A DNA stretch of 64,000 nt from Levilactobacillus tongjiangensis (lineage in GTDB: Bacteria; Bacillota; Bacilli; Lactobacillales; Lactobacillaceae), in the NCBI RefSeq assembly GCF_003946345.1, contig NZ_RHNY01000006.1, forward strand, positions 62,001-126,000, read 5' to 3'. The position numbers were made by a program, and so were the translations under genes. This document shows positions 371 to 61,260 of this stretch, piece after piece; position 1 is the stretch's first letter; every line of letters starts with the position of its first letter. Under the pieces are notes generated by a model. The model searched no databases. It worked only from the letters and a program-made list of their open reading frames with translations, and was not told the origin of the DNA.

Positions 371-562
371 GCCGCCTGCGGCTGCCAGGACTGGAACCGG
401 CTGTGGGGTCGCTTCCGGCCTGAGAAGCGGTCCTCCAGCTCAACTTGAAGCCTTTCGCAGACCACGCAAGTCTCCAAGCTTGCCCCATGGTGTAAGTTCG
501 GGCAGAGCCCACCCAAACTAACACCATCGACACCGCCGGTCCCAGTCCTGGCAACCTCCGGC
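371..562 (+). repeat. PIR element 1 (forward copy)
   Basis: An imperfect palindrome of about 190 bp. The closing stem is GCCAGGACTGG near 383 against CCAGTCCTGGC near 541, extended by ACCGGC-GTG pairing. The forward signature GTGGGGTCGCTTC lies just inside the left arm. Further in are a CTTG-AAG/CTCCAAG hairpin and a GGTGTAAG...CTAACACC hairpin followed by a TCGACAC motif. The outer edges carry the family end CCTCCGGC. It pairs with inverted element 2 at 975. Confidence 0.8.
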
Positions 563-974
563 TACATTGATGTATTTTGAAATATTAGGTGGTTGGTCGT
601 GACATAGTAAGAGTGATTTTCAACCTGACCAACCTGATATAGGGAAATTGGTGGTTGTTAATGCAGGGTGCAAGTTAACTTTTTGCAGAATTGCTAAATT
701 GAATTGAAGAAAAAATAATTTCTTTTTTGATTTAAAATTTCTAGTAGAAACCTGATTTTGAAAGCCAGTTTCTTCGATTGCTAAGTATTATTTGCCATAT
801 GCCTGATACAACAAAATTTGGGTGTTGGGAGTTAGTCAGATATTGTGGAGAAGTACCACCTTAACGTTTGCCAAATTCGACTGACTCTTGGCAACCTAGT
901 GGCGCGCCAATAAAATTTAGGAAGTACTGTCACTCAGGCATCTAATCTAACTTAGTTTTCAAGAACCTGTTTAA
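563..974. other. Gene-free spacer between PIR elements 1 and 2, with a shrunken nested element
   Basis: No credible ORF. Positions 800-910 contain CTGATACAACAA, then CGTTTGCCAAATTCGACTG and CCTAGTGGCGCGCC. These match the two ends of the nested element at 60871-61050, but the middle is missing, so this is probably an internally deleted copy. The stretch 940-980 (ACTTAGTTTTCAAGAACCTG, then TTTAACCGGAGG) matches the flank before elements 4 and 16. The rest is AT-rich and unremarkable. Confidence 0.5.
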
Positions 975-1148
975 CCGGAGGGGGTCAGAGGTGGAGCCAG
1001 CTGTGTCGACGGTGTTAGCCGATTTTCGGCTTACAGCGTGGGACGCGTTTGGAGACTGGTGGTTTTCCAGGCTTCAAACCGAGCCGCAGGACCGCTTTTC
1101 AGGCCGGAGGCGTTCCCCACAGCAGGCGGAATCTCTGACCGCCGCAGG
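975..1148 (-). repeat. PIR element 2 (inverted copy)
   Basis: It starts CCGGAGG and closes with GGGGTCAGAG against CTCTGACC. The family signature is on the minus strand (plus strand GGCGTTCCCCACAGC near 1110). Internal hairpins include GTTAGCCGATTTTCGGCTTAC. It is nearly identical to element 4 at 7395, and the similarity continues past the palindrome to about 1230 (shared AATTTTAAG and GGTTTTCGAACTT). Together with element 1 it forms an inverted pair. Confidence 0.8.
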
Positions 1149-1325
1149 TGGCTGGGTGAGACCAATTTTAAGCCTATAACGACTTGCTATTCCGGGCTTG
1201 ATAACGGTTTTCGAACTTCCAATCTTCAGTAAATAGCAGTATATTAAGTAAAAATTGACCGGCGGATACATGAAACCTTTTCACTTGAGGTTGCAGTGAT
1301 AACCGCTTTCAAGTGGAGGAGACAC

Positions 1326-1364
1326 AAAAAAAGCACGAACCAGCGAACTGGCTCGTGCTTTTTC
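1326..1364 (-). terminator. Terminator of rpmB (symmetrical)
   Basis: AGCACGAACCAG pairs with CTGGCTCGTGCT around CGAA. An A-run on the left gives the minus-strand T tail. The hairpin also has T residues on the plus side, so it may work in both directions. Confidence 0.8.
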
Positions 1365-1384
1365 TTATATAACCGTGTTTATAA

Positions 1385-1570
1385 CTAAACGCGGGTTACA
1401 TTACCTGATTTCAGAGTCCGGGCAGAAATCCAGACCTTCTTCGGCTTACCGTCCACCAAGATGCGAACCTTTTGCAAGTTCGGCTTCCAAGCGCGACGAG
1501 ATGAATTTAAAGCGTGGGAACGCTTGTTACCGAAGCGCGTCCGCTTACCGTTGATAAAATCCTTTGCCAT
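1385..1570 (-). CDS. rpmB: 50S ribosomal protein L28
   Basis: A 61-residue basic protein starting [20 protein letters not shown], which is the typical N-terminus of bacterial bL28. It ends with the expected [13 protein letters not shown] region. I chose the ATG at 1570 over a longer upstream frame because GGAGGGTTTACGCC sits directly before it and the length matches the family. As in other Firmicutes, it is divergent from the asp23-fakA operon. It is a structural component of the large ribosomal subunit near the E site. Confidence 0.97.
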
Positions 1571-1633
1571 GGCGTAAACCCTCCTTTGTGGATTCATTAC
1601 TTTAAAAAAGCAGTGCTTTTTACTCACCTGACT

Positions 1634-1662
1634 AATTTACCATACTATTTTGCGGAACGCAA
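1634..1662 (-). promoter_or_regulatory. Possible rpmB promoter
   Basis: On the minus strand, TTGCGT (1657-1662) and TAAATT (1634-1639) are separated by 17 nt, about 65 bp upstream of the rpmB start. The match is only moderate. An overlapping alternative is TTGAAA-17-CAAAAT. Confidence 0.35.
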
Positions 1663-1802
1663 TATTTTCTTTCAAGTAAATTTGCTTGACACTTATTTAC
1701 CGTCAGGGCGTGCTTTTAAGAGTTCCTATTTCTATTTTTGCGCGGGTTGTGGTAAGATTAATCTCTGTTAAGATTCTACAACCAGACAAGGAGGCTATTT
1801 CC

Positions 1803-2165
1803 ATGGCCGTAAAGATTAAGACTCAGTACGGAACAATTGATATCACGAATGAAGTGATTGCGACCGTAGTTGGGGGTGCCGCGACTGATAATTATGGTGT
1901 CGTGGGCATGGCAAGCAAAAATCAAATCCGTGACAACGTTAACGATATTTTACGGCGGGAGAACTACGCCCGCGGTGTTGTTGTGCGACAGGAAGAAAAT
2001 GGCGTAGCAATTGACGTCTTTATTATCGTCAGCTACGGAACCAAGATTTCTGAAGTATCACGGAACGTTCAATCTAAAGTTAAATATAACCTGGAAACGA
2101 TGCTGGGGGTTAACGCAAACTCAGTAAACGTCATTGTTCAAGGGGTGCGGGTGTTGGCTGATTAG
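1803..2165 (+). CDS. Asp23/Gls24 family envelope stress protein (YloU-like)
   Basis: A 120-residue protein with the Asp23 family pattern: MAVKIKTQYGTIDITNEVIA at the start and a C-terminal VQGVRVLAD. The ATG at 1803 is preceded by AAGGAGG (1788-1794); a longer frame from 1686 has no such site. Asp23-family proteins are envelope-associated and rise under alkaline or cell-wall stress in staphylococci; the exact role here is unknown. It stands 32 bp upstream of the fatty acid kinase gene, the usual Firmicute pairing, so the two are probably co-transcribed. Confidence 0.93.
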   Translation: MAVKIKTQYGTIDITNEVIATVVGGAATDNYGVVGMASKNQIRDNVNDILRRENYARGVVVRQEENGVAIDVFIIVSYGTKISEVSRNVQSKVKYNLETMLGVNANSVNVIVQGVRVLAD

Positions 2166-2197
2166 CCAGACGTACTGAAATCAAGGAGGATACTTAG

Positions 2198-3892
2198 TTG
2201 AAAGTAACAGAAATTACTAATCTTGAGTTTGGTAAGATGGTCCAAGCCGCCTCGCAAAAACTAAACCAGAATGCCGATTTTATTAACTCACTAAACGTTT
2301 TCCCTGTTCCAGATGGGGATACGGGAACCAATATGAGCCTTTCTCTGCAGAGTGGGGCCAAGTACGAACGTGACTTGGACAGCACTGCCGTTGGGGCATT
2401 AGCAACCGCTTTAGCTAAAGGACTGTTAATGGGAGCTCGTGGGAATTCTGGGGTCATTTTATCCCAGATTTTCCGTGGTTTCTCTAAGAAATTGGCTGAC
2501 AAGCAAACTTTAACGGCCCAAGACTTAGCAGATGGCTTCGCAGCTGGTGCAGAAACAGCTTATAAGGCTGTTATGAAGCCAACTGAGGGAACTATCCTGA
2601 CTGTTGTGCGTGAAGGCGCACAGGCCGGCTTAAACACAGCTAAGAAGTCTGACGACGTCTTAGCTGTGATGGATGCCGTCTTTGAAGCGGCCAAAGCTGC
2701 TTTGGCGACGACGCCAGACTTACTCCCCGTCTTAAAGCAAGTGGGTGTGGTCGATTCCGGTGGTCAAGGGCTGACTTTTGTTTTGGAAGCCTTCAATGAC
2801 TCTCTGAACGGTCGTGTCGCTGAAGAGGGCGACTACAAGCCTGACGACGCCGAAATGGATGAAATGATCGATGCGACCCACCACCAGAGTGTGCAAGGGA
2901 AACTTGATCCTAACAGCATCAAATTCGGTTACTGTACCGAAATCATGGTTCGTATTGGCCGCGGTAAGCAGGTTGATCATGACTTTGATTACGATACCTT
3001 CTACGACTACCTGGCTAACTTAGGGGATTCCTTACTGGTCGTTAACGATGACGAAATTGTCAAGGTCCACGTCCACACGGAACACCCTGGCAAAGTGATT
3101 GCTTGGGGCCAAGAATTTGGGGACTTAGCTAAGGTCAAAGTCGATAACATGCGGATGCAACAGGAAACCATCATGGAACATGATGAAGCCCCCGCTGAAT
3201 CTGCCGTTGCTACGGCAACTGCTGAAGAAGCGCCTGCTGATACGGCCATCATTGCCATTACTGCTGGTGACGGGTTAGCGACGTTGTTCAAGAGTTTGGG
3301 TGTGACCCACGTTGTTAACGGTGGTCAGACTATGAACCCAAGTACGCAAGACATCGTGGATGCCATCAACCAAAGCAAGGCTAAGCGGGCCATTGTCTTA
3401 CCTAACAATAAGAATATTTTCTTAGCTGCCGAACAAGCAGCCAAGGTCGCCGATGTGCCAGCCGTCATTGTACATTCTAAGACGGTGTCACAAGGGATGA
3501 CAGCTATGCTGGGTTACAATCCAGATGCCGAGTTAGACGAAAACCAAGAAGCAATGGAAGACAACCTGTCAGCTGTTAAGAGCGGTCAGGTAACGCATGC
3601 CATTCGTGATACCCAACTTGATGGGTTTGACATCAAGGAAGGCAACTTCATGGGAATCGTTGATGGAACGATCAAGGTAACCGACGCGGATCTTTTGACC
3701 ACGGCGGTCGACACGGTCAAAGCCATGCTCGATGATGAAAGTGAAATTATAACGATTATTTATGGTGCCGATACGACGGCTGAAGTTGCAGAACAATTGC
3801 AAGAACAGGTCGAAGCGTTGGACGATGACTTAGAAACAGAAGTTCATGAAGGGGACCAACCGGTTTACCCATTCTTGATTTCGGTTGAATAA
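2198..3892 (+). CDS. fakA: DAK-domain fatty acid kinase catalytic subunit (FakA/YloV)
   Basis: 564 residues, close to staphylococcal FakA. The N-terminal DhaL-type kinase domain (about 8-200) shows the Mg-ATP loop PDGDTGTNM at 38-46, GARGNSGVILSQ at 79-90 and DSGGQG at 186. A middle segment and a C-terminal domain (about 320-560) follow, joined by a linker rich in Ala and Glu (about 325-350). The start is TTG at 2198, set by AAGGAGG 8 nt upstream. In the known system FakA phosphorylates fatty acids delivered by a FakB carrier so that PlsX/PlsY can use them. plsX lies two genes downstream, which supports this role; no fakB is in the window. Confidence 0.9.
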   Translation: MKVTEITNLEFGKMVQAASQKLNQNADFINSLNVFPVPDGDTGTNMSLSLQSGAKYERDLDSTAVGALATALAKGLLMGARGNSGVILSQIFRGFSKKLADKQTLTAQDLADGFAAGAETAYKAVMKPTEGTILTVVREGAQAGLNTAKKSDDVLAVMDAVFEAAKAALATTPDLLPVLKQVGVVDSGGQGLTFVLEAFNDSLNGRVAEEGDYKPDDAEMDEMIDATHHQSVQGKLDPNSIKFGYCTEIMVRIGRGKQVDHDFDYDTFYDYLANLGDSLLVVNDDEIVKVHVHTEHPGKVIAWGQEFGDLAKVKVDNMRMQQETIMEHDEAPAESAVATATAEEAPADTAIIAITAGDGLATLFKSLGVTHVVNGGQTMNPSTQDIVDAINQSKAKRAIVLPNNKNIFLAAEQAAKVADVPAVIVHSKTVSQGMTAMLGYNPDAELDENQEAMEDNLSAVKSGQVTHAIRDTQLDGFDIKEGNFMGIVDGTIKVTDADLLTTAVDTVKAMLDDESEIITIIYGADTTAEVAEQLQEQVEALDDDLETEVHEGDQPVYPFLISVE

Positions 3893-3902
3893 CCGGTGTA
3901 CG

Positions 3903-3938
3903 AAAAAAGATTGGGCTAATGGTCCAGTCTTTTTTTCG
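3903..3938 (+). terminator. Weak terminator-like hairpin between fakA and recG
   Basis: AAAAAAGATTGG pairs with CCAGTCTTTTTT over a short loop (one G-U pair), 11 bp after the fakA stop. It may only attenuate, because recG starts 30 bp further on without a clear promoter of its own. Confidence 0.5.
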
Positions 3939-3969
3939 CATTAGTTAGCGATGATGGGAGGGAAAATCA

Positions 3970-6003: not shown

Positions 6004-6019
6004 CCAAAGGAGACTACTC

Positions 6020-7054: not shown

Positions 7055-7100
7055 TTTCAACCACTAGTTGCTAGGTCAAAGGCTGCAAGTAGGAGTTTTC

Positions 7101-7289
7101 CGCCTCCGGTTGTCAGGACAGGCACCGGCAGTGGGGCCGCTTCCGGCCTGAGGAGCGGTCCTTCAGCTCAACTTTTAGCTTCTCGAAAACCATGAGAATC
7201 TAAAAGCTTGTCCGGCAATGTAAGTCCGGGAAATTCGCCCGAACCAACATTACCGACACTGCTGGTACCTGTCCTGGCAACCTCCGGCT
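7101..7289 (+). repeat. PIR element 3 (forward copy)
   Basis: The closing stem GTCAGGACAGGCACCGGCAGTG pairs with the complement of CACTGCTGGTACCTGTCCTGGC, only a few positions being wobble. The signature is GTGGGGCCGCTTC. The middle hairpin CTTTTAG...CTAAAAG replaces TTTGAAG...CTTCAAA of other copies, a compensated change. It ends CCTCCGGC and lies 46 bp after the plsX stop. Confidence 0.85.
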
Positions 7290-7394
7290 ATTTTAGCTGA
7301 GTAACTAAAGGTTGAAAGCACTGAAACGCCCACTGTGACTGATACAACAAGAATCGGGTATTTAAACTAGCTTAGTTTCCAAGAACCCGTTTAA

Positions 7395-7571
7395 CCGGAG
7401 GCGGTCAGAGGTGGAGCCTGCTGTGTCGACGGTGTTAGCCGATTTTCGGCTTACAGCGTGGGACGTGTTTGAAGATTGGTGATTTTTTCCAGGCTTCAAA
7501 CCGAGACGAAGGACCGGTTTTCAGGCCGCAGGCGTTCCCCACAGCAGGTGGAATCTCTGACCGCTGCCGGT
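7395..7571 (-). repeat. PIR element 4 (inverted copy)
   Basis: CCGGAGGCGGTCAGAG pairs with CTCTGACCGC at 7553-7562. It is nearly identical to element 2 over the palindrome and for about 75 bp beyond (to 7645). It forms an inverted pair with element 3, separated by about 105 bp that contain CTGATACAACAA (7340-7351) and the shared flank GTATTTAAACTAGCTTAG. Confidence 0.85.
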
Positions 7572-7933
7572 GGCTGGATGAGACTAATTTTAAGTCCGTA
7601 ACGTCTTACTATTCTTGGTTTCATAATGGTTTTCGAACTTTCAACCTTTATCTGGGTGCTTTGATGTGACTGAGTAATTAAGCTAGTTTATTGATTTGGA
7701 TGTTTAGGTATATTTTCAAGTCAATCTACAGAGCTTGTAGGATTAATCAATGACTGGTCTGCTATAGAATTTGGTCTAAATCTGAGTATGGTATTAGTAC
7801 TTGCAGTTGATTTTCAGTCGGACAAGACAATTTCATTGGTACTACCAATCAGCTTGGTCAACCTACTTGACTACTAAAATCGGCCCAGCAACACGGTTCC
7901 ACACCAACCTCTGTCGTTAGGCCTATAATTGGC
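7572..7933. other. Gene-free spacer upstream of acpP
   Basis: The first 75 bp continue the similarity to the segment after element 2. The rest is AT-rich, with no ORF, hairpin or known motif that I can see. Confidence 0.5.
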
Positions 7934-12604: not shown

Positions 12605-14076
12605 TGGGATTATTTGATATTTTTCGTCGCCGGGCTAAGAAAGAACCCGCAAGCCAGGCTAGTGAAGCGCCAGTAGAAACGCCTACGAGTGAAATACCCG
12701 TTGAGTCTAGCGTGGCTAACGATGCGGGGATGGCAACAGCCCCATCGTCCTCTGCGACTGGACAACCTGAATCGACTGATGAGGTGGCATCGTCTGACGC
12801 GGCACCAGTTAGTTCTGCGGTTACTAGTGAAGCACCAGCCACTAGCACGGCGGCTACTGAACCGGCTAGTGTTGCGGCAACTAGTGCTGCTGAAGCTTCA
12901 GTGGCAGCCAATGTTCCGGTATCTTCTGAACCAGTTGTCAACAGTGCTGCACCGTCAGTAGACGATCCAGCTACTGATGAAGTGGCCGCCACTACTGAAG
13001 ATGGTGTAACTAGTGAAGCACCAACTGAGAATCAGCCGGCTGAAGAGTCTTCGGTCGACAAGGCTAAGGAAGACTCACCAGCCACGAAGACTGATGATTC
13101 TGAAACCGGTGAACCGGCCGAAAAGACCGATGAACAGCTCTACGACAAGGGGTTGGAGAAGACGCGCAAGACGTTCGGTGAACGCCTGAACGCTTTACTG
13201 GCTAACTTCCGCCACGTGGATGAAGGCTTCTTCGATGACCTTGAGGAAACCCTGATTGGCGCCGACGTTGGTTTCGACATGGCCGTTAAACTCAGTGATG
13301 AGTTACGCGATGAAGTAAAATTACAAAATGCTAAAAAGTCCGCCGACGTTCAAAACGTCGTGGTTGAAAAACTGGTTGAAATCTACGATGCGGCCGGTAA
13401 CGATGAAAGTACTGCGCTGAACGTGGCCAGCTCTGGTCCAACCGTGATCCTATTTGTCGGGGTCAACGGGGTCGGGAAGACGACGACGATTGGGAAGATG
13501 GCGAACCGTTACCATCAAGACGGCAAGAAGGTCTTACTGGCCGCTGCCGATACTTTCCGGGCCGGGGCGACTGAACAGTTGGATGTCTGGGCCAAGCGAG
13601 CAGACGTGGATATTGTGACGGGCAAGCCACAATCAGATCCCGCTGCGGTAGTCTTCGATGCCGTGAAAAAGGCGAAGGAAGAGGATTACGACATTCTCTT
13701 CGTCGATACCGCTGGTCGGCTGCAAAATAAGGTCAACTTGATGAATGAGTTGGCTAAGATGAAACGCATCATTACCCGTGAAATTCCAGATGCGCCACAC
13801 GAAGTCTTGCTGGTACTGGATGCCACGACTGGTCAGAATGCCTTGACTCAGGCCAAACTCTTTAAAGAATCAACCGATGTGACCGGTATTGTCCTGACTA
13901 AGTTGGATGGGACAGCCCGTGGGGGAATTGTTTTGGCCATTCGTAATGAACTCCACGTACCGGTGAAGTTTATTGGGTTGGGTGAACAGATTTCTGACTT
14001 GCGGCCGTTTGATCCCAACGAGTTTGTTTACGGGTTGTTCAAGGGCCTGATCGATGTTAAAGCATTGGAGAAGTAG
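12604..14076 (+). CDS. ftsY: Signal recognition particle receptor FtsY
   Basis: 490 residues. Residues about 15-180 form a low-complexity acidic A domain rich in Ser, Ala, Thr, Glu and Pro. The SRP GTPase NG domain follows: GVNGVGKTTTIGK near 286, DTAGR near 368 and TKLDG near 432. It docks the Ffh-ribosome complex at the membrane for co-translational insertion. The ATG overlaps the smc stop. The A domain contains imperfect short repeats and is longer than in Bacillus. ffh lies 0.8 kb downstream. Confidence 0.97.
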   Translation: MGLFDIFRRRAKKEPASQASEAPVETPTSEIPVESSVANDAGMATAPSSSATGQPESTDEVASSDAAPVSSAVTSEAPATSTAATEPASVAATSAAEASVAANVPVSSEPVVNSAAPSVDDPATDEVAATTEDGVTSEAPTENQPAEESSVDKAKEDSPATKTDDSETGEPAEKTDEQLYDKGLEKTRKTFGERLNALLANFRHVDEGFFDDLEETLIGADVGFDMAVKLSDELRDEVKLQNAKKSADVQNVVVEKLVEIYDAAGNDESTALNVASSGPTVILFVGVNGVGKTTTIGKMANRYHQDGKKVLLAAADTFRAGATEQLDVWAKRADVDIVTGKPQSDPAAVVFDAVKKAKEEDYDILFVDTAGRLQNKVNLMNELAKMKRIITREIPDAPHEVLLVLDATTGQNALTQAKLFKESTDVTGIVLTKLDGTARGGIVLAIRNELHVPVKFIGLGEQISDLRPFDPNEFVYGLFKGLIDVKALEK

Positions 14077-14079
14077 TGC

Positions 14080-14149
14080 ACAAAATGGCTGGGGTGACGA
14101 AGGCTCTAACCGTGGTGATGCCTACATTTACCTCGAACCTGCTAAGTAA
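14080..14149 (+). pseudogene. Possible C-terminal gene remnant after ftsY
   Basis: In the frame ending at TAA 14147-14149 the DNA reads QNGWGDEGSNRGDAYIYLEP then AK, a composition typical of a real protein end. No start codon or upstream body exists because ftsY ends 3 bp earlier. It may be the scar of a lost gene, or chance. Confidence 0.25.
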
Positions 14150-22918: not shown

Positions 22919-22938
22919 GTACCATCAAGTTGGCGCTC

Positions 22939-23110
22939 TCCGGTGGCCAGGGGCGGTGCCTACTGTGGGGACGCTTCAGCCAAAGAACGGGCTTCTCGCT
23001 TGTTTTTTAGCCACGCAGACCACGTGTCTGAAAGACGCCCACGGCCTAGGCTAGCAAAAAAACGCTAGCCAACGCCGTTTTCACAGTTGGCACCACCCCT
23101 GGCGGCCGGA
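22939..23110 (+). repeat. PIR element 5 (forward copy, single)
   Basis: The closing stem GGCCAGGGGCGGTGCCTACTGTG pairs with CACAGTTGGCACCACCCCTGGC; ACTGTG/CACAGT replaces GCTGTG/CACAGC of element 14, a compensated change. The signature is GTGGGGACGCTTCAGCC. The right hairpin is GCTAGC-AAAAAAAC-GCTAGC. It has no inverted partner nearby and splits the usual rpsP-khpA-rimM-trmD cluster. Confidence 0.85.
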
Positions 23111-23250
23111 AAGGCAAGGGATACGACTGAGTTGGCTAATTGGTATTTGCAAAGTTTCAACCTTTAGATCACAACTAAAAATAACGTATTTCAAATAATT
23201 AAATGTGGTGGGACGAGTTAGTTTGCACCATTCGTAGATAAATAAACGAC
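23111..23250. other. Spacer before rimM
   Basis: AT-rich, presumably holding the rimM promoter, but I find no pair of hexamers at proper spacing. Confidence 0.3.
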
Positions 23251-32461: not shown

Positions 32462-32594
32462 TCCGGCGGCCAGGGATTGTGGGGACGCTTCAGCCGAAGA
32501 GCGGGCTTCTCGCTCGATTTGAAGCCACGGAAACCCCGTGTCTTCAAAGTCGCTCGTGGTGTAAACTGGCAAAATCATTTAACACCACCTCCGG
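32462..32594 (+). repeat. PIR element 6 (forward copy, shortened)
   Basis: It starts CTCCGGCGGCCAGGG and ends AACACCACCTCCGGC. The signature GTGGGGACGCTTCAGCC and the middle hairpin TTTGAAGCCACG...CGTGTCTTCAAA are intact. Parts of the closing stem are deleted on both sides. The right hairpin is GGTGTAAA...TTTAACACC. No inverted partner nearby. Confidence 0.8.
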
Positions 32595-38902: not shown

Positions 38903-38958
38903 CCTTTAATTTTAACCAGTTGGCGCTACTTGCGTCGGCTGGTTTTTTATTTTCGACT

Positions 38959-39139
38959 ACGGTTGGCCAGGGCGGCGCCCCGCTGTGGGGACCGAGGAAA
39001 GCCTGAGGAGCGGTCTTTCCTCTCGACTTTGGGCCTCGGATAGTCCCCGAGTCCCAAAGCTCGTCCCACGGTGTAGATTGACCCAAAACGTCAATCAACA
39101 CCGTCGACACTGCGAGGCGTCACCCTGGCCAACCTCCGT
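38959..39139 (+). repeat. PIR element 7 (forward copy)
   Basis: The closing stem TGGCCAGGG...CGC-GTG pairs with CAC-GCG...CCCTGGCCA. Inside are a perfect GAGGAAAG/CTTTCCTC hairpin, a CTTTGGG/CCCAAAG hairpin (where other copies have TTTGAAG/CTTCAAA) and a CGGTGTAGATTGA...TCAATCAACACCG hairpin before TCGACAC. Outer end AACCTCCG. Inverted partner at 39354. Confidence 0.85.
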
Positions 39140-39353
39140 CTTAGACTGATCGTTGGTGTACATATGGGTAATTATTGGTATGACGTGTTTGGACAGTATT
39201 ACCAAGATTACTAAATGGTCGGAACCAGGGTAAACTGGATTTTGATTGATTAACTGCAAATTTGTTGCACGGATTTTATCAGCGATACTATTAGTAGTCA
39301 GTGATGAAATTGATTTAGTCTTCTCATTGTGGCGTAGATGGAACCCATTCAGA
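39140..39353. other. Spacer between PIR elements 7 and 8
   Basis: AT-rich, no gene with a ribosome site and no similarity to the other inter-element spacers that I can see. Confidence 0.4.
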
Positions 39354-39524
39354 ACGGAGGCGGCCAGGGGTGGGCCGCTGTGAAAATGGCGTTAGCTAGT
39401 GATTTTCTAGCGTACGGCATGGGCGACTTTGAAGGCAGGTGGGCTTTTCGTGGCTTCAAATCGAGCGGGAAGCCCGTTCTCTGGTTGGAGCGTCCCTCAC
39501 AGCAGGTCTGCCCCTGGCCGCCGG
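39354..39524 (-). repeat. PIR element 8 (inverted copy)
   Basis: It starts CGGAGGCGGCCAGGGG and ends CCCCTGGCCGCCGG. Plus-strand GGAGCGTCCCTCACAGCAGG is the inverted signature. The middle hairpin is TTTGAAGGCAGG...GTGGCTTCAAA, and GCTAG...CTAGC forms the other. It is the closest relative of element 13. Confidence 0.85.
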
Positions 39525-39631
39525 CGTGAGTATTACGTCAAATTTCGTTTTAATCCACAAGGTAAATTACAGGGTGAAACGAAAGTGGGTGACAAATTAC
39601 GGCTGGATTTCGTTAGTAAGAGTATGGGAAC

Positions 39632-46465: not shown

Positions 46466-46655
46466 GTTATCTCGCTCGCTTTCTTCATCGATTTTATCTA
46501 CCAGAATATCATACTCTACTGATTGCGGTTGTGCTAGTTTTGCAGATTAAAAACGTTAAAACAACGAAAAATTAACTCTTTCTATAGAAATAACACTAAC
46601 TTTTGTTGGTTAACCTTTTTAACCAATTGGTCGCATTGATTGTCGTCACTGGCCG

Positions 46656-46747
46656 CTACCGGTCACCAGGGAGGGCCCCCGCTGTAGGTTAGCTAAAAAA
46701 CACTAACCAACACCGTCGACACGGCGCGGCCCCTCCCTGGCAACTGA
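46656..46747 (+). repeat. PIR element 9 (forward copy, miniature)
   Basis: Only about 90 bp. The closing stem CACCAGGGAGGG-CC pairs with GG-CCCCTCCCTGGCA; CGCTGT and ACGGCG follow inward. The first two internal hairpins are gone; the third remains as GGTTAG-CTAAAAAACA-CTAACC followed by the CGTCGACAC motif. The inverted copy at 47170 is its likely partner. Confidence 0.8.
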
Positions 46748-46753
46748 TGGCTT

Positions 46754-47041
46754 TTGGTGGCGGGACTCAAGATTGCTCGTGTTACTTGGGCTGAAAAGCC
46801 ATCCGTTAAGGGTGGAGAGTATGACATTTTGCAGATTAGTAAGAAAAAGTTGGTTTTTGATGACAATACGCCAAGTATGACGCATTTGAAGTATAAGAAG
46901 TTGGGCAAACATTGGTATAAATTCCGTCGCTACAACGGTGAGACTCGTCGAAACCAATCAATGTCAACGATGCACTTTGTTAGTGCTCATCACGTAACTT
47001 TCAATGATTTTGGCAATCACATTAGTCTATACAAAAAGTAA
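46754..47041 (+). pseudogene. Probable truncated remnant of a secreted-protein gene between two PIR elements
   Basis: 95 codons from a TTG with no ribosome site, starting 7 bp after PIR element 9, with an in-frame stop just upstream inside the repeat edge. The translation is basic and beta-rich (GEYDILQISKKKLVF, KYKKLGKHWYKF, FGNHISLYKK) and looks like the mature part of the small exported basic proteins found at 25207 and 25700, though the similarity is weak. The signal peptide region is missing, as if lost when the repeat arrived. It could instead be a real small gene with an unusual start. Confidence 0.4.
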
Positions 47042-47169: not shown

Positions 47170-47341
47170 AGGTGAAGGTGGTCAGGTACGGAGCCCGTGG
47201 TGGCCCTGTTAGGCCAAGCGGGCTACTTGGGCTTACAGGGCAAGGACGAGCTTTAAGACTCGAACTTTGAGGCTTAAAGTCGAGCCTAAAGACCGCTTCG
47301 CAGGCTTTAGGCGGTCCCACAGGCGTAGCACCTGACCACCG
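47170..47341 (-). repeat. PIR element 10 (inverted copy, divergent)
   Basis: GGTGGTCAGGTACGG-GCC pairs with GTAGCACCTGACCACC. The middle hairpin CTTTAAG...CTTAAAG again shows swapped but paired bases relative to TTTGAAG...CTTCAAA. GCGGTCCCACAGG is the inverted signature. Additional palindromes CCCTGTTAGGCC...GGCTTACAGGG (47203-47240) and CCTAAAG...CTTTAGG (47285-47311). It lies 123 bp before dinG. Confidence 0.8.
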
Positions 47342-47464
47342 AACCGGCTAACCACAACAAATCTGAATTCTAAACTAGAAATCCAGGCGTAGCGTTGGCG
47401 GCCTAAGTGGTGTATCATAGTGCCAGTTATAAACGCAAATTGTGCAGAAATTGGTGAGCATACT

Positions 47465-52853: not shown

Positions 52854-52888
52854 GGTTAACCTGTAATTTATGGTGGAAGCTGTCGTTC

Positions 52889-53057
52889 TCCGGTGGTCAG
52901 AGGCGGTGCCTGCTGTGGGGACGCTTCAGCCGAAAGGCGGGCCTCCCGCTCGTTTTGAAGCCAGGAAGTTCACCTGTCTTCAAAAGCGCCATGGCCTAAG
53001 CTAGAAAATCACTAGCTAACGCCATTTTCACAGCTGGCACCACCTCTTTGGCCTGAC
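52889..53057 (+). repeat. PIR element 11 (forward copy)
   Basis: GGTCAGAGGCGGTGCCTGCTGTG pairs with CACAGCTGGCACCACCTCT and, after a TTG bulge, GCCTGAC. Signature GTGGGGACGCTTCAGCC. Middle hairpin TTTGAAGCCAGG...CTGTCTTCAAA. Right hairpin AGCTAG...CTAGCT. It starts 35 bp after the dnaD stop. First member of a three-element cluster. Confidence 0.85.
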
Positions 53058-53069
53058 TTTCGCCTTACC

Positions 53070-53215
53070 GGCCGCCAGATATGGGCTGGAACGGTGCGGA
53101 CACAACTTGAAGCCTCGAAAGTGCCGAGTCTCCAAGCTTGGTCTTCTGCTAAGCCAGTAGGGAAAACACCTACTGACAAAGTAGAACGACGCGCCTGAGC
53201 CCATATCTGGCGGCC
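53070..53215 (+). repeat. PIR element 12 (nested, different arms)
   Basis: A perfect 18-bp inverted repeat, GGCCGCCAGATATGGGCT at 53070-53087 against its complement at 53198-53215. The interior repeats the family plan: ACTTGAAGCCTCG...AGTCTCCAAGCT as in element 1 and a CAGTAGG...CCTACTG hairpin. It sits between elements 11 and 13. Confidence 0.85.
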
Positions 53216-53323
53216 TCTCGGCTTATACAGTATTTTAATAATCGAGTAGTATCGGCTAGCCCCTGTGAGTGGTATGAGTAGATATTTCAGTATCGCTTGG
53301 AATAGGTTAAAACGCAATCAGAG

Positions 53324-53497
53324 CTGGAGGTGGCTAGGGAGGAGCCGGCCGTGAAGGTGGTGTTAACTGGTGTTTTGTGCCAGTTTACAGCACGGGCGAC
53401 TTTGAAGACACGGGTTTTGCGTGGCTTCAAATCGAGCGAGAAGCCCGTTCTTTGGCTGAAGCGTCCCCACAGCAGGGGACCTCCCTGGCTGCCGGAG
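53324..53497 (-). repeat. PIR element 13 (inverted copy)
   Basis: It starts CTGGAGGTGGCTAGGGAGG and ends CCTCCCTGGCTGCCGGAG. Plus-strand TGAAGCGTCCCCACAGCAGG is the inverted signature. Middle hairpin TTTGAAGACACG...CGTGGCTTCAAA. A GTTAACTGG...CCAGTTTAC hairpin lies near 53362-53389. It closes the cluster opened by element 11. Confidence 0.85.
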
Positions 53498-53550
53498 TGC
53501 GGTCCACGTACACTATCAATATACAAACTAAATACAAACTAATTCTATGA

Positions 53551-55449: not shown

Positions 55450-55537
55450 GACGACTTAACGGTTATAGTGAAGTAAAGAGCGTCAAATTAACTGCCTGCT
55501 GGCGTACGTTTCAGGAATGTCAGCTGAGCAGTAAGCA

Positions 55538-55569
55538 AAGGACTGGGAGAATCTTCCAGTCCTTTTTTA
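55538..55569 (+). terminator. Terminator of the oxidoreductase gene
   Basis: AAAGGACTGG pairs with CCAGTCCTTT around GAGAATCTT, followed by TTTT. Confidence 0.85.
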
Positions 55570-55681
55570 GTGCCAACTTTTTAAGGTGACTGTTCCAAGG
55601 CAATGTTAGCACTGAGCCACACCGTTACGGCGTAGTAAAATCAGAGTTAAGCTTAGTGATGGCTTGAAGGGGAGTCCTAGC

Positions 55682-55848
55682 GTGGTTGATAAGCGGAGAC
55701 TTAAATACTTTATGAGCGGTTTGATGATACTGGTGGTAGGGTTGGCTTGACGAGAATTATGACGGGCGAGCTGCATCTAAAGGATGTTTTGTTATTTGCC
55801 GTGCTTATCGCAGGACTGCGAAAGCCTTCAGCTAACCAGGGGTCCTAG
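55682..55848 (+). pseudogene. Possible frameshifted small two-helix membrane protein gene
   Basis: GTG at 55682 behind AAGGGGAG gives VDKRRLKYFMSGLMILVVGL then a stop at 55748-55750. Shifted by one frame, the next 90 bases (55759-55848) read MTGELHLKDVLLFAVLIAGL then RKPSANQGS and a stop. Joined, they make a plausible small protein with two membrane helices, so a frameshift is likely. Alternatively the 22-residue peptide is a real small membrane peptide. Confidence 0.3.
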
Positions 55849-55899
55849 GTCGGATTTCAACCGCGTTTAGAGTGGTAATTGATTGTGAATGTAATAAGG

Positions 55900-55942
55900 C
55901 GGGTCTGTAAGATTGTGTCTGGATGACAATCTTACGGACCCG
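55900..55942. other. Long perfect hairpin without T-run
   Basis: CGGGTCTGTAAGATTGT pairs with ACAATCTTACGGACCCG (17 bp, one G-U) around a 9-nt loop. Neither strand has a following T-run, so it is not an obvious terminator. It ends 18 bp before a strong promoter. Confidence 0.6.
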
Positions 55943-55959
55943 TTGGCAGTTGCTAAGTA

Positions 55960-55988
55960 TTGTAATCTAAATATTTTCTCACTATAAT
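55960..55988 (+). promoter_or_regulatory. Promoter of the secreted-protein gene
   Basis: TTGTAA (55960-55965) and a perfect TATAAT (55983-55988), spacer 17 nt. Confidence 0.75.
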
Positions 55989-56024
55989 GGTACTTATCCT
56001 ACATAAAGAAAAGAGTGAATTATT

Positions 56025-57014: not shown

Positions 57015-57174
57015 TATTTATAAAAACATGATATTTATTTCGTGTCTTTTTTTGTTATACGTAATATAATCGCTGACATATTATTTGATACTCCATTATC
57101 ATTTTTAATTGTAGGCGTTACCTTTTATGTGACAAATTCACAATTAAAGTGCAACAACAGATATTTCAGACCAT

Positions 57175-57223
57175 AAAAAACTCCCGTAAATCTACGCGCT
57201 AAGCGCAAGACTTACGGGAGTTT
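57175..57223. terminator. Bidirectional terminator shared with pbp1A
   Basis: AAAAACTCCCGTAA pairs with TTACGGGAGTTTTT, with GCGC-TAA-GCGC at the tip. It serves the minus-strand pbp1A and possibly the + strand gene. Confidence 0.9.
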
Positions 57224-57239
57224 TTAGCATCCCCAGAGA

Positions 57240-59570
57240 TTAATCATCCGTGTCTGCTGTTGAATTCGTATGTTTATCGGTAGACGTTGCGGTGCTGCCT
57301 GCCGAGGAAGTGGTGGTTGAATCCGTGTTGTCATCATCGCCACCGTCACCGCCACCAGGTTTTTGCTCCGTGGTGCTGGAGGATTCCTTACTGGTGCTGG
57401 ACTCAGTGGTCGTGGTGTTGGTCTTAGACGAGCTGTTGTTCGTCGTGGCCTGACCGTTACTACTGTAAGCAGAGGAACTCGTGGTGTTGGTTGACCCGTA
57501 CTGACTAGTTGCTGTCGTATCGGAAACCGTGCCAGCGTGACCCGTTACGTAGTACTCCGTCTTGTTACCTTGCGACGTAGCGGTCACGGTGCCTGGTGCC
57601 GTCCAATCGGTGTTCGTAGACTTAGAAGCCAAGTAACTCATTTCATACTTATAAATCTGTTGAGCAATTTCCGTTTGCGACTCACTGACGTAGTGGCCCG
57701 TCTGGAATTGCTTATCATACCCGGTCCAAACAGAGACGGCGTAGTTCTTGGTGTAACCCGTGAACCAGGAGTCCATCGTTGCGCCATCTGGCACTTGATC
57801 GGCGTAGTCGTCAGGGTAGGAGTCCGTCCCGGTCTTACCAGCTTGGTAGAGACCAGAGATGGCAGCGGAACGTCCGGAACCATTGTCGTTCGTGATAACG
57901 TCCTTCATCATATCCGTCAACATGAACGCCGTCGCGGTGGACATGGCCCGTTTACCAGTGGAGGCGTAGTTGTGGGCTTTACCATCTTGCGTGACGACCT
58001 TGGAGACCAGGCAAGGTTTGTAGTACGTCCCACCGTTTGCGAAGGCGGCGTAGGCCGCAGCTTCTTGTTCGGATGAGATGTAAAGACCAATCCCGTTTTG
58101 TAGGGTCAACGGCTTGTCGAACGTCATTCCCAAGCCCTTCAGGAAGGTGGTTGCCTTCTTGATGCCGACATTTTGTAACGTCCGCACGGCGGGGATGTTC
58201 CGTGACTCGTAGAGGGCCTTACGCATGGTGATGGTTCCTTGATACTGTCGGTCCCAGTCGTAAAGGTTCTTGGTCGTGCCAGGGTACGTAAACGCCGTAT
58301 CCTTGACTGGTTCGTAGGTTGGATAATACAGATAGTCAATGGCCGGACCGTAATCCATCAGTGGCTTGGCCGTTGAGGCACTGGATCGGTCGGTTTGCAC
58401 GGCCCGGTTGAGACCAAAGGTGACGTTGCCAGTCTTCCGGCCACCGATCATGGCCACAACTTTCCCGTTGTTCGGGTTAACGATCGTTGAGCCAACCTGG
58501 AACTTGCTGGAAGGGAAGGAGACGTAGCTGTTACCATTGACGATATCATAGAGTTTCTTCTGAGCACCCATATCCAAGTTGGTATGCACCTTCAGGCCAC
58601 CAGTCGTCGTGTTGTAACCCTTTTTCTTCAATTCAGCGTAGACCTGTTTGAGGTAAGCGTCGATGACCTTAGTGGTCTTAGGGTCGTTGCTGGTGGTCGT
58701 CTGATGGTTCTTGACCAGCCCAGTGGTGATACTGGTTGCTTCAGCCTGCTTCGCCTGAGCGGACGTGATGGCATTGTTCGAAGCCATGGCTTCCAAGACC
58801 AGGTCACGCCGCTTCTTAGCGAGCGCTGGATAACTGGTTGGATCATAGTTGGTTGGCGATTGTGGCATCCCAGCCAAGAGGGCCAACTGGGCGAGATCCA
58901 GGCTCTTAAGCGTCTTGCCGTAGTAGTACTGTGCGGCAGTCTGCATCCCATAGACCCCGTTACCCATGTAGACCTTGTTCACGTAATACTCGAGAATTTG
59001 GTCCTTGGAGTAATCGTGGTCGACCTTCAAGGCTAACCAGGCTTCCTGGGCCTTACGCTTAAGCGTTCGGTCGGAGGCGTTGGTGGAGAAGACGGACAGC
59101 TTGACCAGCTGTTGCGTCAAGGTACTCCCACCTTGCATCCCCAGTGAGGAGCCGGTGACGTTTGCAAACGCCGCTCCCATGATCCGGATGGGGTCGACCC
59201 CGTTGTTTTTGTAGAAGCGTCGGTCTTCAGTGGAAACGACCGCGCTCTTCAACGTGGCGGGGATGTTTGGCGATTTCACGTAGTTTCGGTTCTGTGCCCC
59301 GAGTCGTGAAATGACCTTGCCGTTGGCGTCGTAGACCCGTGTCGAGGTATCACTCGACAGGGCACCTTCTGTGACCTTAGGGGCGCTTTGCGCGTAGTAA
59401 AAGAACAGGCCGGCGCCGGCGAGAATTCCCAGAACACCAATGGCAACGATGATGAACAAAATGCGACGGAATAACCGCCACCCGTTGTGCGGGCGTTTGG
59501 GGCCGGCGCCCTGGGTGCGCTCATTATTGCGGCTCATCCGGGTCTCCGACGATGAATTGTTACTAGACAT
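57240..59570 (-). CDS. pbpA: Class A penicillin-binding protein 1A
   Basis: 776 residues. A short basic cytoplasmic tail, a membrane helix (about 37-60), the GT51 glycosyltransferase domain with the catalytic Glu115 in STEDRRFY and GGSTLTQQLVK, then the transpeptidase domain with STAK (Ser399), SRN and KTGT near 578. A tail of about 110 residues, rich in Ser, Thr, Gly and Asp, ends the protein (TNTTSSSAYSSNG, GGGDGGDDD). It builds and crosslinks peptidoglycan. It follows recU by 45 bp; recU-ponA is the conserved Firmicute pair. Confidence 0.96.
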   Translation of the reverse strand: MSSNNSSSETRMSRNNERTQGAGPKRPHNGWRLFRRILFIIVAIGVLGILAGAGLFFYYAQSAPKVTEGALSSDTSTRVYDANGKVISRLGAQNRNYVKSPNIPATLKSAVVSTEDRRFYKNNGVDPIRIMGAAFANVTGSSLGMQGGSTLTQQLVKLSVFSTNASDRTLKRKAQEAWLALKVDHDYSKDQILEYYVNKVYMGNGVYGMQTAAQYYYGKTLKSLDLAQLALLAGMPQSPTNYDPTSYPALAKKRRDLVLEAMASNNAITSAQAKQAEATSITTGLVKNHQTTTSNDPKTTKVIDAYLKQVYAELKKKGYNTTTGGLKVHTNLDMGAQKKLYDIVNGNSYVSFPSSKFQVGSTIVNPNNGKVVAMIGGRKTGNVTFGLNRAVQTDRSSASTAKPLMDYGPAIDYLYYPTYEPVKDTAFTYPGTTKNLYDWDRQYQGTITMRKALYESRNIPAVRTLQNVGIKKATTFLKGLGMTFDKPLTLQNGIGLYISSEQEAAAYAAFANGGTYYKPCLVSKVVTQDGKAHNYASTGKRAMSTATAFMLTDMMKDVITNDNGSGRSAAISGLYQAGKTGTDSYPDDYADQVPDGATMDSWFTGYTKNYAVSVWTGYDKQFQTGHYVSESQTEIAQQIYKYEMSYLASKSTNTDWTAPGTVTATSQGNKTEYYVTGHAGTVSDTTATSQYGSTNTTSSSAYSSNGQATTNNSSSKTNTTTTESSTSKESSSTTEQKPGGGDGGDDDNTDSTTTSSAGSTATSTDKHTNSTADTDD

Positions 59571-59615
59571 GTTAATCTCCTTTGCGTTTAAACGTGTTCA
59601 CTTCTGGTGTTTCTA

Positions 59616-60221
59616 CTATAGAAGCTGATCCACGGCTTTGAGATAGGGAACAGGTAACTGGAGTTCTGGCGTAATCAGGATGCCTTGCTCAGCAATGTCT
59701 GCGTAAGGGACTGATTTACGGCCACCGGTCTCCTGAGCATCCCAACAAGCAAACAGCTTGGCCGCAGGGTACAGGTAGATCTCTTGGCGGGTAACGAATT
59801 TAATAATAGCAAAGCAAATACCGCCCTGAGTCATACAAGCACGCATGTGATCAATCTGATGTTGATGGAAGTTTTTCAAGGGAAACGACGACTTGTTGCG
59901 AGTTTCCTTGGCATCAAAGTCCAGGTAATGGCCCTGATAAACGCCGTTGTAGTCGGTCGTGGAGGCCGTACTGAAGTAAGCCTCTTTGATGACTGCGGCA
60001 CTGCGTTTAGGGTAATCGACCTTGACGATGCGAATGGGCGTTGGTTTCTTGTGAACGACAGCCAGTCCGTGTAACTCATAGTAGGTATTGGACTCGTTGA
60101 GTTCCTCTTCCAACGTCATTCCCCGTTTACCATAGTCGGTGGTGTAGGTGCTGGGGAAACGCCGTCCAGTTGACGTTGCAGGTGCTCGGTAGGCATTCCC
60201 ATTGGGATACCGAATGGTCAT
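59616..60221 (-). CDS. recU: Holliday junction resolvase RecU
   Basis: 201 residues from the ATG at 60221 (MTIRYPNGNAY, with GAGGAA upstream). Nuclease residues are visible in GMTLEEELNESN (about 34-45), VDYPKR and DFDAKETRNKSSFPLKNFH. It cuts Holliday junctions and modulates RecA. An upstream in-frame start at 60242 adds seven residues overlapping the ribosome site and is less likely. Confidence 0.95.
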   Translation of the reverse strand: MTIRYPNGNAYRAPATSTGRRFPSTYTTDYGKRGMTLEEELNESNTYYELHGLAVVHKKPTPIRIVKVDYPKRSAAVIKEAYFSTASTTDYNGVYQGHYLDFDAKETRNKSSFPLKNFHQHQIDHMRACMTQGGICFAIIKFVTRQEIYLYPAAKLFACWDAQETGGRKSVPYADIAEQGILITPELQLPVPYLKAVDQLL

Positions 60222-60412
60222 TGATTCCTCACGCTCCTTCACTTGAAAACCGAAGCTTCCAGTTTATGACCTAGTTATTGACATTATACCAAGGTGACCG
60301 CGAAATAAAAACTCCTAAAGCCACTTGAAGCCCGTGATTCCCCGAATTTAAACGTAACTTAACTTGAGGACACCTTGGCTTTGGCTGTGGCAGAGAAACT
60401 AAAATGTCCGCG

Positions 60413-60589
60413 CTCCGGCGGCCAGGGCTGGTGCCTGCTGTGGGGACGCTTCAGCCAAAAGGCGGGCTTCTCGCTCGCTTTGAAGCCACGAAAACCGCGT
60501 GTCTTCAAAGGCGCCCACGGCCTAGGCCAGCCTAGAACGCTAGCCAATGCCGTTTTCACAGCTGGCGCCAGCCCTGGCCACCTCCGGCT
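60413..60589 (+). repeat. PIR element 14 (forward copy, best-formed)
   Basis: The clearest copy. The closing stem GGCCAGGGCTGGTGCC then T then GCTGTG pairs with CACAGC then T then GGCGCCAGCCCTGGCC, about 22 paired bases with one wobble and one mismatch. The signature GTGGGGACGCTTCAGCC follows. The middle hairpin TTTGAAGCCACG...CGTGTCTTCAAA and the right hairpin GGCCTAGGCC/CTAG-GCTAGCC complete a cloverleaf-like outline. Ends CTCCGG on the left, CCTCCGGC on the right. Confidence 0.9.
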
Positions 60590-60870
60590 TTGATTAGATG
60601 ATTGTTTGACGGTGGATGTGTCTGCAAGGGAAGTAGCGATTTAGGTTGGCCACCCAAGTACGATATCGATTTTTTTAATGAGTTGGGAGGTAGTCAAGTA
60701 GTCTTCAATGAAGCAATCATTGTGTAGATAGTTGTCTAAAGGTTGAAAATTAAATTGATGGTACTCTGATGGCTAAGGTTTTCGTCGACTTTGCTTATGT
60801 TTTAGCTAAAGGCTGAAAGCACTGAAACGCCCACTACGCCTGATACAACAAGGATTATCAGACATAGTGG
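60590..60870. other. Spacer between PIR elements 14 and 15
   Basis: No gene. GGCTGAAAGCACTGAAACGC near 60810 and CTGATACAACAA at 60841 repeat the stretch at 7314-7351 between elements 3 and 4. Confidence 0.5.
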
Positions 60871-61050
60871 GGAATTTCCGCCTTACCGTTCGCCAAATTT
60901 GGACTGGAATGTGGTGGGAAGGACGGGACAAGCCAAAGGGCGGTCTTGTCCCTCACTTGAAGTCGCAAAGCAAGTCTTCAGGTCGCCATTTTTAAGTAAA
61001 TCACTCGAAAATCCCACGGCTGAGTCTAAATTTGATTCACTCACGGCTAC
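60871..61050 (+). repeat. PIR element 15 (nested, different arms)
   Basis: Outer arms AAATTTGGACT and AGTCTAAATTT. Inside are a perfect GGGACAAG/CTTGTCCC hairpin (with GCCAAAGGGCGG in its loop, as in forward copies) and an ACTTGAAG...CTTCAGGT hairpin. The flank CTAGTGGCGTGCCAA follows; the same outer sequences at 860-910 surround almost nothing, so that locus has lost the body. Confidence 0.75.
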
Positions 61051-61118
61051 CTAGTGGCGTGCCAACAATATTGAGTAATTGCTGTCATTCAGGTATTTAA
61101 GCTAGCTAACCTGTTTAA

Positions 61119-61260
61119 CCGGAGGCAGTCAGAGGTGAAGCTAGTTGTGTCGACGGTGTTTGGAGACTGGTGGTTTTTCCAGGCTTCAAACCGAGCCGCA
61201 GGACCGCTTTTCAGGCCATAGGCGTTCCCCACAGCGGGCGGGATCTTTGACTGCCTCCAA
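61119..61260 (-). repeat. PIR element 16 (inverted copy)
   Basis: CCGGAGGCAGTCAGAG pairs with TCTTTGACTGCCTCC. Close to elements 2 and 4 (AGGCGTTCCCCACAGC, CAAACCGAGCCGCAGGACCG), but about 45 bp containing the right-hand hairpin are deleted near 61158. Closes the 14-15-16 cluster. Confidence 0.8.

Follow-up and report, generated by a model that had tools for sequence, protein, structure and literature searches.

Facing pairs of branched intergenic repeats in a Levilactobacillus genome: a REPIN-like organisation, partly borne by an IS4-type miniature element

What are the folded repeats that occupy the intergenic regions of a 64-kb stretch of Levilactobacillus tongjiangensis DNA (contig NZ_RHNY01000006.1, positions 62,001 to 126,000; hereafter the window, meaning all 64,000 nucleotides), and how did they come to be there? 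An initial annotation of the window had listed 16 such sites as copies or fragments of one cloverleaf-like element. The reading that we favour, at slightly better than even probability, is that each repeat is an arm of a small mobile unit, non-autonomous and composed of an arm, a spacer and an inverted arm, which would work in the manner of a REPIN (a hairpin-forming doublet of repetitive extragenic palindromes, or REPs) and whose arms would be branched hairpins of about 190 bases. On this proposal, the outward-reading strand of each arm, which is the complement of the strand that we modelled, would fold when single-stranded, whether as RNA or as single-stranded DNA (ssDNA); the arm fold, together with the arm ends GCCGCCTCCGG and CCTCCGGCT, would be recognised by a protein of the host or of a mobile element; and the unit would be copied into intergenic gaps without target duplication. 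We regard it as the best explanation because it takes in the covarying fold, the excess of doublets, the defined arm ends, the single copies with missing pieces, the enrichment in convergent gaps and the variable presence of the repeats. The draft genome carrying the window measures 2.72 Mb, and was compared with two sister genomes (G028 and G010) and with its closest named match, Levilactobacillus yonginensis JCM 18023, whose DinG-like helicase shows 99% protein identity and whose locus L054 is 88–95% identical in DNA to the window over three main shared blocks.

The copies share one branched structure. A covariance model of 189 positions, R1, was built from 28 copies, with the plus strand running from GCTGTGGGG to CTTGAAGCC. 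In the 28-copy alignment, from which the structure itself was derived and on which covariation was also counted, 90.8% of 1801 cells were paired and 53 of 66 pairs changed on both sides, values neither of which was reached in any of 500 shuffles. Double changes filled 290 cells compared with 84 in shuffles, and sliding the partner columns by 1–3 positions reduced pairing to 30–43%. The fold comprises outer pairs with a 24-pair closing stem, one branch that encloses two hairpins, and a further long hairpin, and is thus a three-way junction, one branch of which carries a second three-way junction, plus an extra hairpin. The long closing stem and branched hairpins of the cloverleaf first described are therefore real, but the junctions are nested and the plan is not a flat cloverleaf. 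R1 matched all 16 listed sites on the correct strand (E up to 1), and at 13 of them the match spanned all 189 positions, with 66–176 bits. Ten sites, marked as training copies in Table 1, match by construction because they were part of the training set; the six outside it (973, 32481, 46652, 53059, 60885 and 61117) match as well, which bears out the original view that the sites form a single family sharing one structure. Twelve of the 28 R1 matches in the window were weaker shadows on the opposite strand, as the copies are near-palindromic.

Across the genome, R1 gave at least 150 matches, nearly all over the full model; the best 150 of 1045 candidates were scored, so that the copy total is a lower bound. 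Full-model searching of the 95 regions fetched around these hits, plus the window, yielded at least 227 separate copies, including six weaker hits added by hand, which together make up 40.5 kb or about 1.5% of the genome. The early guess of hundreds of copies was sound.

The sites in the original list are genuine repeats, and most copies belong to facing pairs. Among neighbours less than 600 bp apart in the 227-copy set, 79 were convergent (+-), 11 and three pointed the same way (++ and --, respectively), and none was divergent (-+), while 160 of the 227 copies stood in convergent pairs. The convergent share (79/93, compared with 25% expected) has a probability of about 1e-33 by chance, and the bias was already visible in the 150 scored hits (22/25). 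Same-way neighbours on contigs C34, C23 and C11 are local duplicates with 95–98% identity. The spacer between facing arms is about 50–530 bp long. Arms of the same doublet were 65.2% alike and randomly chosen arms 64.6% (p 0.34), so a giant hairpin formed between the two arms is not the conserved feature. A crude motif rule divided the arms into 39 of class A and 152 of class B; class B takes in the second arms of the miniature element described below, and the 35 'B-B' doublets include at least one such element (C3:6140).

Comparison with the sister genomes suggested how single and short copies arise. Five single or short copies had pieces missing relative to sister genomes. The copy at C1:120271 is without most of a partner arm that G010 retains, and the junctions of the window copies at 46652, 39352 and 22939 were seen by eye to lie at short direct repeats. 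In the comparisons read in sequence, doublets outside the miniature element differ between this genome and its sisters by missing arms or spacers, several of them at short direct repeats. This suggests that single and short copies are deletion products of fuller doublets, and the sites originally listed at 22939 and 46656 look like such remnants. For five copies in G024 and G020 (L284, L287, L288, L289 and L294), pairwise homology comprised both arms and the spacer, about 440–467 bp, and ended either at the arm ends or no more than about 20 bp from them. Presence also varies at a single gene: in dinG regions of Levilactobacillus and relatives, a repeat match was found in 15 of 31 (E up to 1e-5). 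We rejected the possibility that the site upstream of dinG is one conserved ortholog over eight loci, since the copies there belong partly to different sub-families and align poorly.

One lineage of doublets is carried by a miniature inverted-repeat transposable element (MITE) of the IS4 type of insertion sequence (IS), and its more recent amplification was probably the work of an ordinary DDE transposase. Related spacers were present in 33 of the 80 doublets, and 57 of 160 outer flanks fell into two clusters. The complete element, about 590 bp long, consists of CTAAAGGTTGAAAG, about 75 bp, an arm, about 80 bp, an arm of a second type, about 65 bp, and CTTTCAACCTTTAG. With no more than one mismatch allowed, its 14-bp end was found 73 times in the genome, compared with one occurrence of the reversed control, and the fetched regions contain 24 end pairs of 284–596 bp plus two wider ones of 1705 and 3780 bp. 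Target duplications of 8 bp appeared perfect by eye in three copies (L171, L225 and L167) and imperfect in others. The L167 site is empty in G010 (L333), which has one copy of the eight bases with one base different. Class A doublets thus combine terminal inverted repeats (TIRs) and target duplication with the absence of a transposase gene, as is typical of MITEs. A 284-bp unit with perfect ends, both of whose arms are mere stubs (L185:825-1108; C23:108057-108340), was also found, from which the MITE ends may be able to move without cloverleafs.

Related ends occur in other genomes of the genus. In G015, both ends (up to 3 mismatches) were found at six of 14 loci and R1 matches at ten of 14, and the sole open reading frame (ORF) of at least 120 aa in these units, 121 aa long, overlaps the end in L251. 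In G024, the MITE ends open repeated sequences that run off contig ends at nine of the 10 loci listed, and have the same sub-end as G008. The G008 locus (L368) encodes a 200-aa fragment, its frame cut by the contig end, which scored 176 bits against the NCBIfam IS4 model NF049925 (cut-off 250), matched Pfam DDE_Tnp_1 above its cut-off, and stops some 100 bp short of the end of CTTTCAACCTTTAG. The 29-base sub-end of L368 was present in four of 35 genus genomes and was not in the window's own genome. Relatives of the L368 fragment occur on 76 plasmid records, many from lactobacilli and enterococci. At another G015 locus (L254), frames resembling IstB-type and IS30-type proteins were noted by eye beyond a single 14-bp end.

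The other 47 doublets have spacers without any relative. In a profile of 152 copies outside the 975-type, which is the first-arm type of the MITE family, the arm ends were defined: AATTG directly precedes GCCGCCTCCGG at one end, and ACGTTGG directly follows CCTCCGGCT at the other (consensus AATTG then GCCGCC, and CGGCT then ACGTTGG). In 35 doublets not of the 975-type, we found no shared TIR (inverted repeats scored 7.09, compared with 7.12 in shuffled pairs) and no shared target duplication (direct repeats 3.66, compared with 3.91), although age could hide both. Several candidate means of movement were tried and rejected. Y1 transposases (HUH type), including the REP-associated tyrosine transposases (RAYTs), have a distribution that does not track the repeat. 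An autonomous doublet with an internal transposase was sought among four convergent pairs with gaps of 500–1920 bp, each pair on one locus; two gaps were without an ORF of 90 aa, one held two small ORFs and one a 220-aa frame that by eye is not transposase-like, while convergent pairs as wide as 4.3 and 7.2 kb (one of each) fell outside that inspection. Carriage by plasmids or phages was not indicated, as a blastn search with one copy gave no match in either. An IS200/IS605-like element (tnpA by Pfam, the PF01797 copy of the window's own genome, with a short tnpB-like frame by eye) lies near a MITE-type copy at L052 (C2:16058), and gave no sign of moving the repeats.

To quantify the pressures acting on copies that have stayed in place, we compared orthologous copies, 25 in G028 and 21 in G010, whose 350-bp flanks matched over at least 150 bp on both sides inside the fetched stretches; the two comparisons partly share the same own copies, and six columns were left out. 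Substitutions were found at 200 of 5299 stem positions (3.8%; G028 3.5%, G010 4.1%), 223 of 3048 loop positions (7.3%; 7.4% and 7.3%) and 2525 of 29528 flank positions (8.6%; 8.5% and 8.6%), and the difference between stems and loops was significant (p ~4e-12). Two L054 pairs, kept outside the pooled counts, gave 2.6% in stems and 4.6% in loops. Double changes numbered 11 in each comparison against about two expected, and seven of each ran from one Watson-Crick pair to another; in G028, five of the 11, four of them Watson-Crick to Watson-Crick, came from the single copy L204:13446.

The changes also distinguish the strands. Among one-sided changes on the modelled strand, those between a Watson-Crick pair and A-C outnumbered those between a Watson-Crick pair and G-T by 76 to 26 (p ~7e-7; 39 to 15 in G028 and 37 to 11 in G010), an excess that implies tolerance of G-U on the complement. 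Loop transitions were even (76 A/G and 70 C/T), those in the flanks leaned slightly the opposite way (834 A/G and 955 C/T), and the L054 pairs contributed one A-C and two G-T changes, too few to count. Within the genome, A-C cells outnumbered G-T cells by 424 to 208 of 9576, a count that takes in some columns without true pairing. These pair counts, within the genome and against the sisters, come from model-fitted alignments of the best 150 of 157 and best 150 of 183 matches, which lean towards the structure. Consistent with the substitution pattern, the complement was predicted to be the stabler strand in 144 of 152 class B copies with RNA parameters and in 149 of 152 with DNA parameters. For class B copies in tandem gaps, this asymmetry averaged 10.8 and 13.0 kcal in the two gene directions (p 0.42). 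Because the bias is independent of the direction of neighbouring genes, simple read-through is not its cause, and we rejected read-through mRNA as the source of the asymmetry. The alignments and predicted stabilities are best explained by a fold that is maintained in place on the strand reading outward from the doublet, and the maintained fold may be RNA or ssDNA alike.

Examination of gene context in the fetched regions, with ORFs predicted by a simple caller and those below 700 bp that overlapped a copy by more than 60 bp dropped as probably spurious, revealed a strong preference. Copies occupied 45 of the 64 convergent gaps, 72 of the 184 tandem ones and 10 of the 52 divergent ones, leaving 19, 112 and 42 without copies (p ~8e-8). 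Of 212 arm outer ends, 139 faced a stop codon, and the median distance was 86 bp. The initial statement that no copy lies in a functional gene is nearly correct, but four of the 227 extend more than 20 bp into a predicted ORF. The excess in convergent gaps fits insertion or survival where promoters are unharmed, and shows no function by itself; pneumococcal repeats are likewise reported where promoters are not harmed, between convergent genes (PMC3049150). The idea that spacers carry promoters of their own was rejected, since there was no clear excess over shuffles among 79 spacers scored on both strands: a score of at least 9 was reached in 9.5% compared with 17.3% of shuffles, a score of at least 8 in 48.7% compared with 44.9%, and the mean best score was 6.4 compared with 5.9.

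Some spacers enclose genes for small secreted-type proteins (window 46754-47041, L054:4768-5148 and L301:3512-3943), which are possible cargo. Two such proteins from different loci are homologous (31% identity, E 3e-14) and had no Pfam match. The window gene is without an N-terminal part that is present in L054. A doublet at L169 with a 1.9-kb spacer (C3:44543-46648) contains a 169-aa secreted-type frame and a 122-aa frame.

Several observations weigh against a mobile doublet with a mechanism of its own. Nine of the 13 large sister differences were read in sequence (the others are L180/L303, L218/L270, L221/L308 and window/L274), and none of the nine is an insertion of a non-MITE doublet. In the L291/L292 pair of G020, homology continues about 40 bp past the outer end of the arm, which makes the end of the unit unsharp. 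No enzyme turned up for the non-MITE doublets; PF01797, a family that does not tell RAYT from IS200, was not found in 12 of 35 genus genomes (mostly draft assemblies), all 12 of which carry the repeat, and was present in the two genus genomes in which R1 had no match at E up to 1e-6. As the MITE copies demonstrate, a DDE transposase is able to spread a doublet, so a second mechanism is not strictly required. Finally, the preservation of stems in static copies points to selection at the level of the host, which a purely selfish element would not need. A rival explanation is that the repeats are structured RNA or ssDNA elements used by the host, spread by transposition and now acting in place, for example to protect, process or insulate transcript ends; a convergent doublet would then give a transcript crossing from either side exactly one well-folding arm. 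We consider this explanation unlikely, though by no means negligible. It would account for the conserved stems (3.8% compared with 7.3% in loops), the A-C excess (76 to 26) in the face of unbiased loop transitions, the better folding of the complement (144 and 149 of 152) and the position of arm outer ends near gene 3' ends (139 of 212 facing a stop codon). However, the stability asymmetry is independent of the direction of flanking transcription (p 0.42), spacers have no clear excess of promoters, even the better strand has few G-U pairs (424 of 9576 cells, some columns not being true pairs), the L054 comparisons gave one A-C and two G-T changes, too few to count, and several arms are missing in a sister.

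It is improbable that all copies are decayed IS4-type MITEs, with the cloverleaf as the MITE interior and the non-MITE doublets having lost recognisable ends. The common spacer sequence in 33 of 80 doublets, the alignment of 57 of 160 flanks, in two clusters, with CTAAAGGTTGAAAG, an end-like motif with one mismatch after the copy at 22939 (C40:85154), and the homology past the arm in L291/L292 all agree with such an origin, but arm ends are conserved over 152 copies and flanks are not, and the flanks of 35 doublets have no inverted repeat or duplication beyond that of shuffled pairs. In addition, homology among the five copies from G024 and G020 does not run beyond the vicinity of the arm ends, and the repeat is found in genomes without a perfect 14-bp end, such as G003, G021 and G029. 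Palindrome-templated repair by template switching could keep stems complementary by mutation alone, with no selection; the 11 double changes against about two expected in each of the two comparisons, five of the 11 in G028 from L204:13446, and the rarity of G-U intermediates are compatible with this, but templated repair should treat A-C and G-T alike, and the strand-specific ratio of 76 to 26 makes it very improbable. That the repeats are ordinary intrinsic terminators or chance palindromes is scarcely conceivable: some copies do come after terminator-like hairpins (by eye), but at least 150 copies share a 189-position model, and the flank profile has no T-run at the conserved end.

The mobile-doublet reading places the repeats alongside several known systems. 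REPINs are inverted doublets that replicate as a unit, with decayed singlets, extragenic locations and hundreds of copies (PMC3116915), and the lactobacillar repeats resemble them in having facing doublets, a less conserved spacer, singlets as decay products, extragenic locations and hundreds of copies. REPs themselves are described as palindromes of 20–40 bp, most of them in GTAG- or CGTC-tagged families (PMC3733652). In contrast, the lactobacillar arm is about 190 bp long, with two junctions and no GTAG/CGTC end tag, and unlike the REPIN/RAYT system the repeat shows no dependence on Y1 genes. Because the type of arm and the linked Y1 transposase do not correspond, the lactobacillar doublet is REPIN-like and not a REPIN, and is partly MITE-borne. 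As in IS4-family MITEs, up to 33 of 80 doublets lie in a unit of about 590 bp with 14-bp ends and, in the best copies, 8-bp duplications, with no transposase gene inside, and the same end adjoins an IS4-type transposase frame in a congener; unlike in such MITEs, other doublets are without TIR or duplication, and the conserved part is the two folded arms.

The pneumococcal BOX, RUP and SPRITE elements are characterised as intergenic repeats that are old and move slowly, have predicted folds and occur in excess between convergent genes (PMC3049150). The lactobacillar repeats fit that description in being old, intergenic, folded and enriched between convergent genes, but by description BOX, RUP and SPRITE are other modular sequences. 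To our knowledge, BOX, RUP and SPRITE do not form strict facing pairs. The inverted terminal repeats (ITRs) of the adeno-associated virus (AAV) type are branched palindromes that stand in inverted orientation at either end of a short DNA; the lactobacillar doublet also has inverted branched palindromes flanking short DNA, by analogy only, but its arms are no more alike than random ones, and most of its spacers could not accommodate a gene. Rfam, against which the initial annotation had proposed a check, gave no match to the repeat: five repeat loci gave no family at E up to 0.5, and the window yielded only RNase P at gathering scores. A description of the family was not found among the literature matches listed.

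This is an old family, distributed across Lactobacillaceae. At E up to 1e-6, R1 matched 33 of the 35 genomes of the genus and three others among 98 searched, and at E up to 1e-8 it matched 96 of the 397 Lactobacillaceae genomes, belonging to 10 of the 40 genera sampled. With at most 150 candidates scored per genome, there were at least 130 matches in 'L. brevis' CD0817 (L058), at least 46 in L. acidifarinae DSM 19394 (L073), at least 25 in L. senmaizukei (L063) and at least nine in L. brevis ATCC 14869 (L072). The copies listed for L. acidifarinae (G448) are about 150–163 bp long, score 70–90 bits, and form a distinct shorter sub-family.

These repeats would give lactobacilli a system comparable to the REPINs of enterics and pseudomonads, with far larger folded arms. 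Since the arms are large and no RAYT link is visible, the system bears on whether the organisation in doublets and the recognition of hairpins arose more than once. The sister species provide natural single-arm losses that are usable for functional tests, the many copies of one structure offer a strand-specific measure of selection, and the repeats may lie behind noise in the assembly and annotation of intergenic regions of Levilactobacillus. That they amount to a new genome-wide structured RNA or ssDNA element, uniting family-wide branched covarying facing pairs, a host-selected fold and a RAYT-independent mobile doublet that sometimes encloses a small secreted-protein gene, is a proposal that we make tentatively and regard as rather unlikely.

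The copies in the window are collected in Table 1; the Pfam scan that bears on the initial remark of no transposase nearby covered 10 window proteins.

Table 1. Repeat copies and associated features in the 64-kb window
Feature	Position	Strand	Evidence and remarks
Cloverleaf, full length	371..563	+	R1 175.6 bits; training copy
Cloverleaf, 975-type (first arm of IS4-type MITE family), facing 371	973..1152	-	R1 163.9 bits; class A alignment
Cloverleaf, full length	7099..7289	+	R1 169.6 bits; training copy
MITE, 347 bp, without second arm; bounded by CTAAAGGTTGAAAG and its inverted copy (one mismatch)	7305..7651	.	TIR matches C40:69305 and C40:69638; alignment
Cloverleaf, 975-type, within MITE 7305-7651	7393..7574	-	R1 156.7 bits; training copy
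Cloverleaf, single	22933..23114	+	R1 127.0 bits; training copy; G028 has spacer and second arm, about 310 bp more
Partial cloverleaf	32481..32592	+	R1 64.6 bits, positions 35-157
Cloverleaf, full length, a few bases past terminator-like hairpin and T-run (by eye)	38952..39141	+	R1 169.7 bits; training copy
Cloverleaf facing 38952	39352..39531	-	R1 120.0 bits; training copy; arm and spacer missing in G028
Cloverleaf without P2-P4 arm, 101 bp	46652..46752	+	R1 40.8 bits; full length in L. yonginensis L054:4405-4595
Cloverleaf upstream of DinG-like helicase gene (Pfam)	47170..47348	-	R1 128.6 bits; training copy
Cloverleaf after dnaD-like gene (Pfam)	52883..53058	+	R1 109.6 bits; training copy
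Divergent cloverleaf adjoining 52883 copy	53059..53223	+	R1 66.2 bits
Cloverleaf facing 52883 and 53059 copies	53322..53503	-	R1 126.8 bits; training copy; mostly missing in G028, present in L054
Cloverleaf, full length	60407..60589	+	R1 147.9 bits; training copy
Weak cloverleaf, second-arm type by sequence	60885..61041	+	R1 27.2 bits, E 3.6e-4
Cloverleaf, 975-type, 150 bp	61117..61266	-	R1 86.9 bits; repeats D3, D11; G028 counterpart 182 bp, L271:2727-2908

Two further features of the window lie apart from these copies. A class B bacterial RNase P RNA gene is located at 62414-62793 (337.7 bits), and at 14084, in the gap after an ORF ending at 14076, G028 is longer by about 1 kb.

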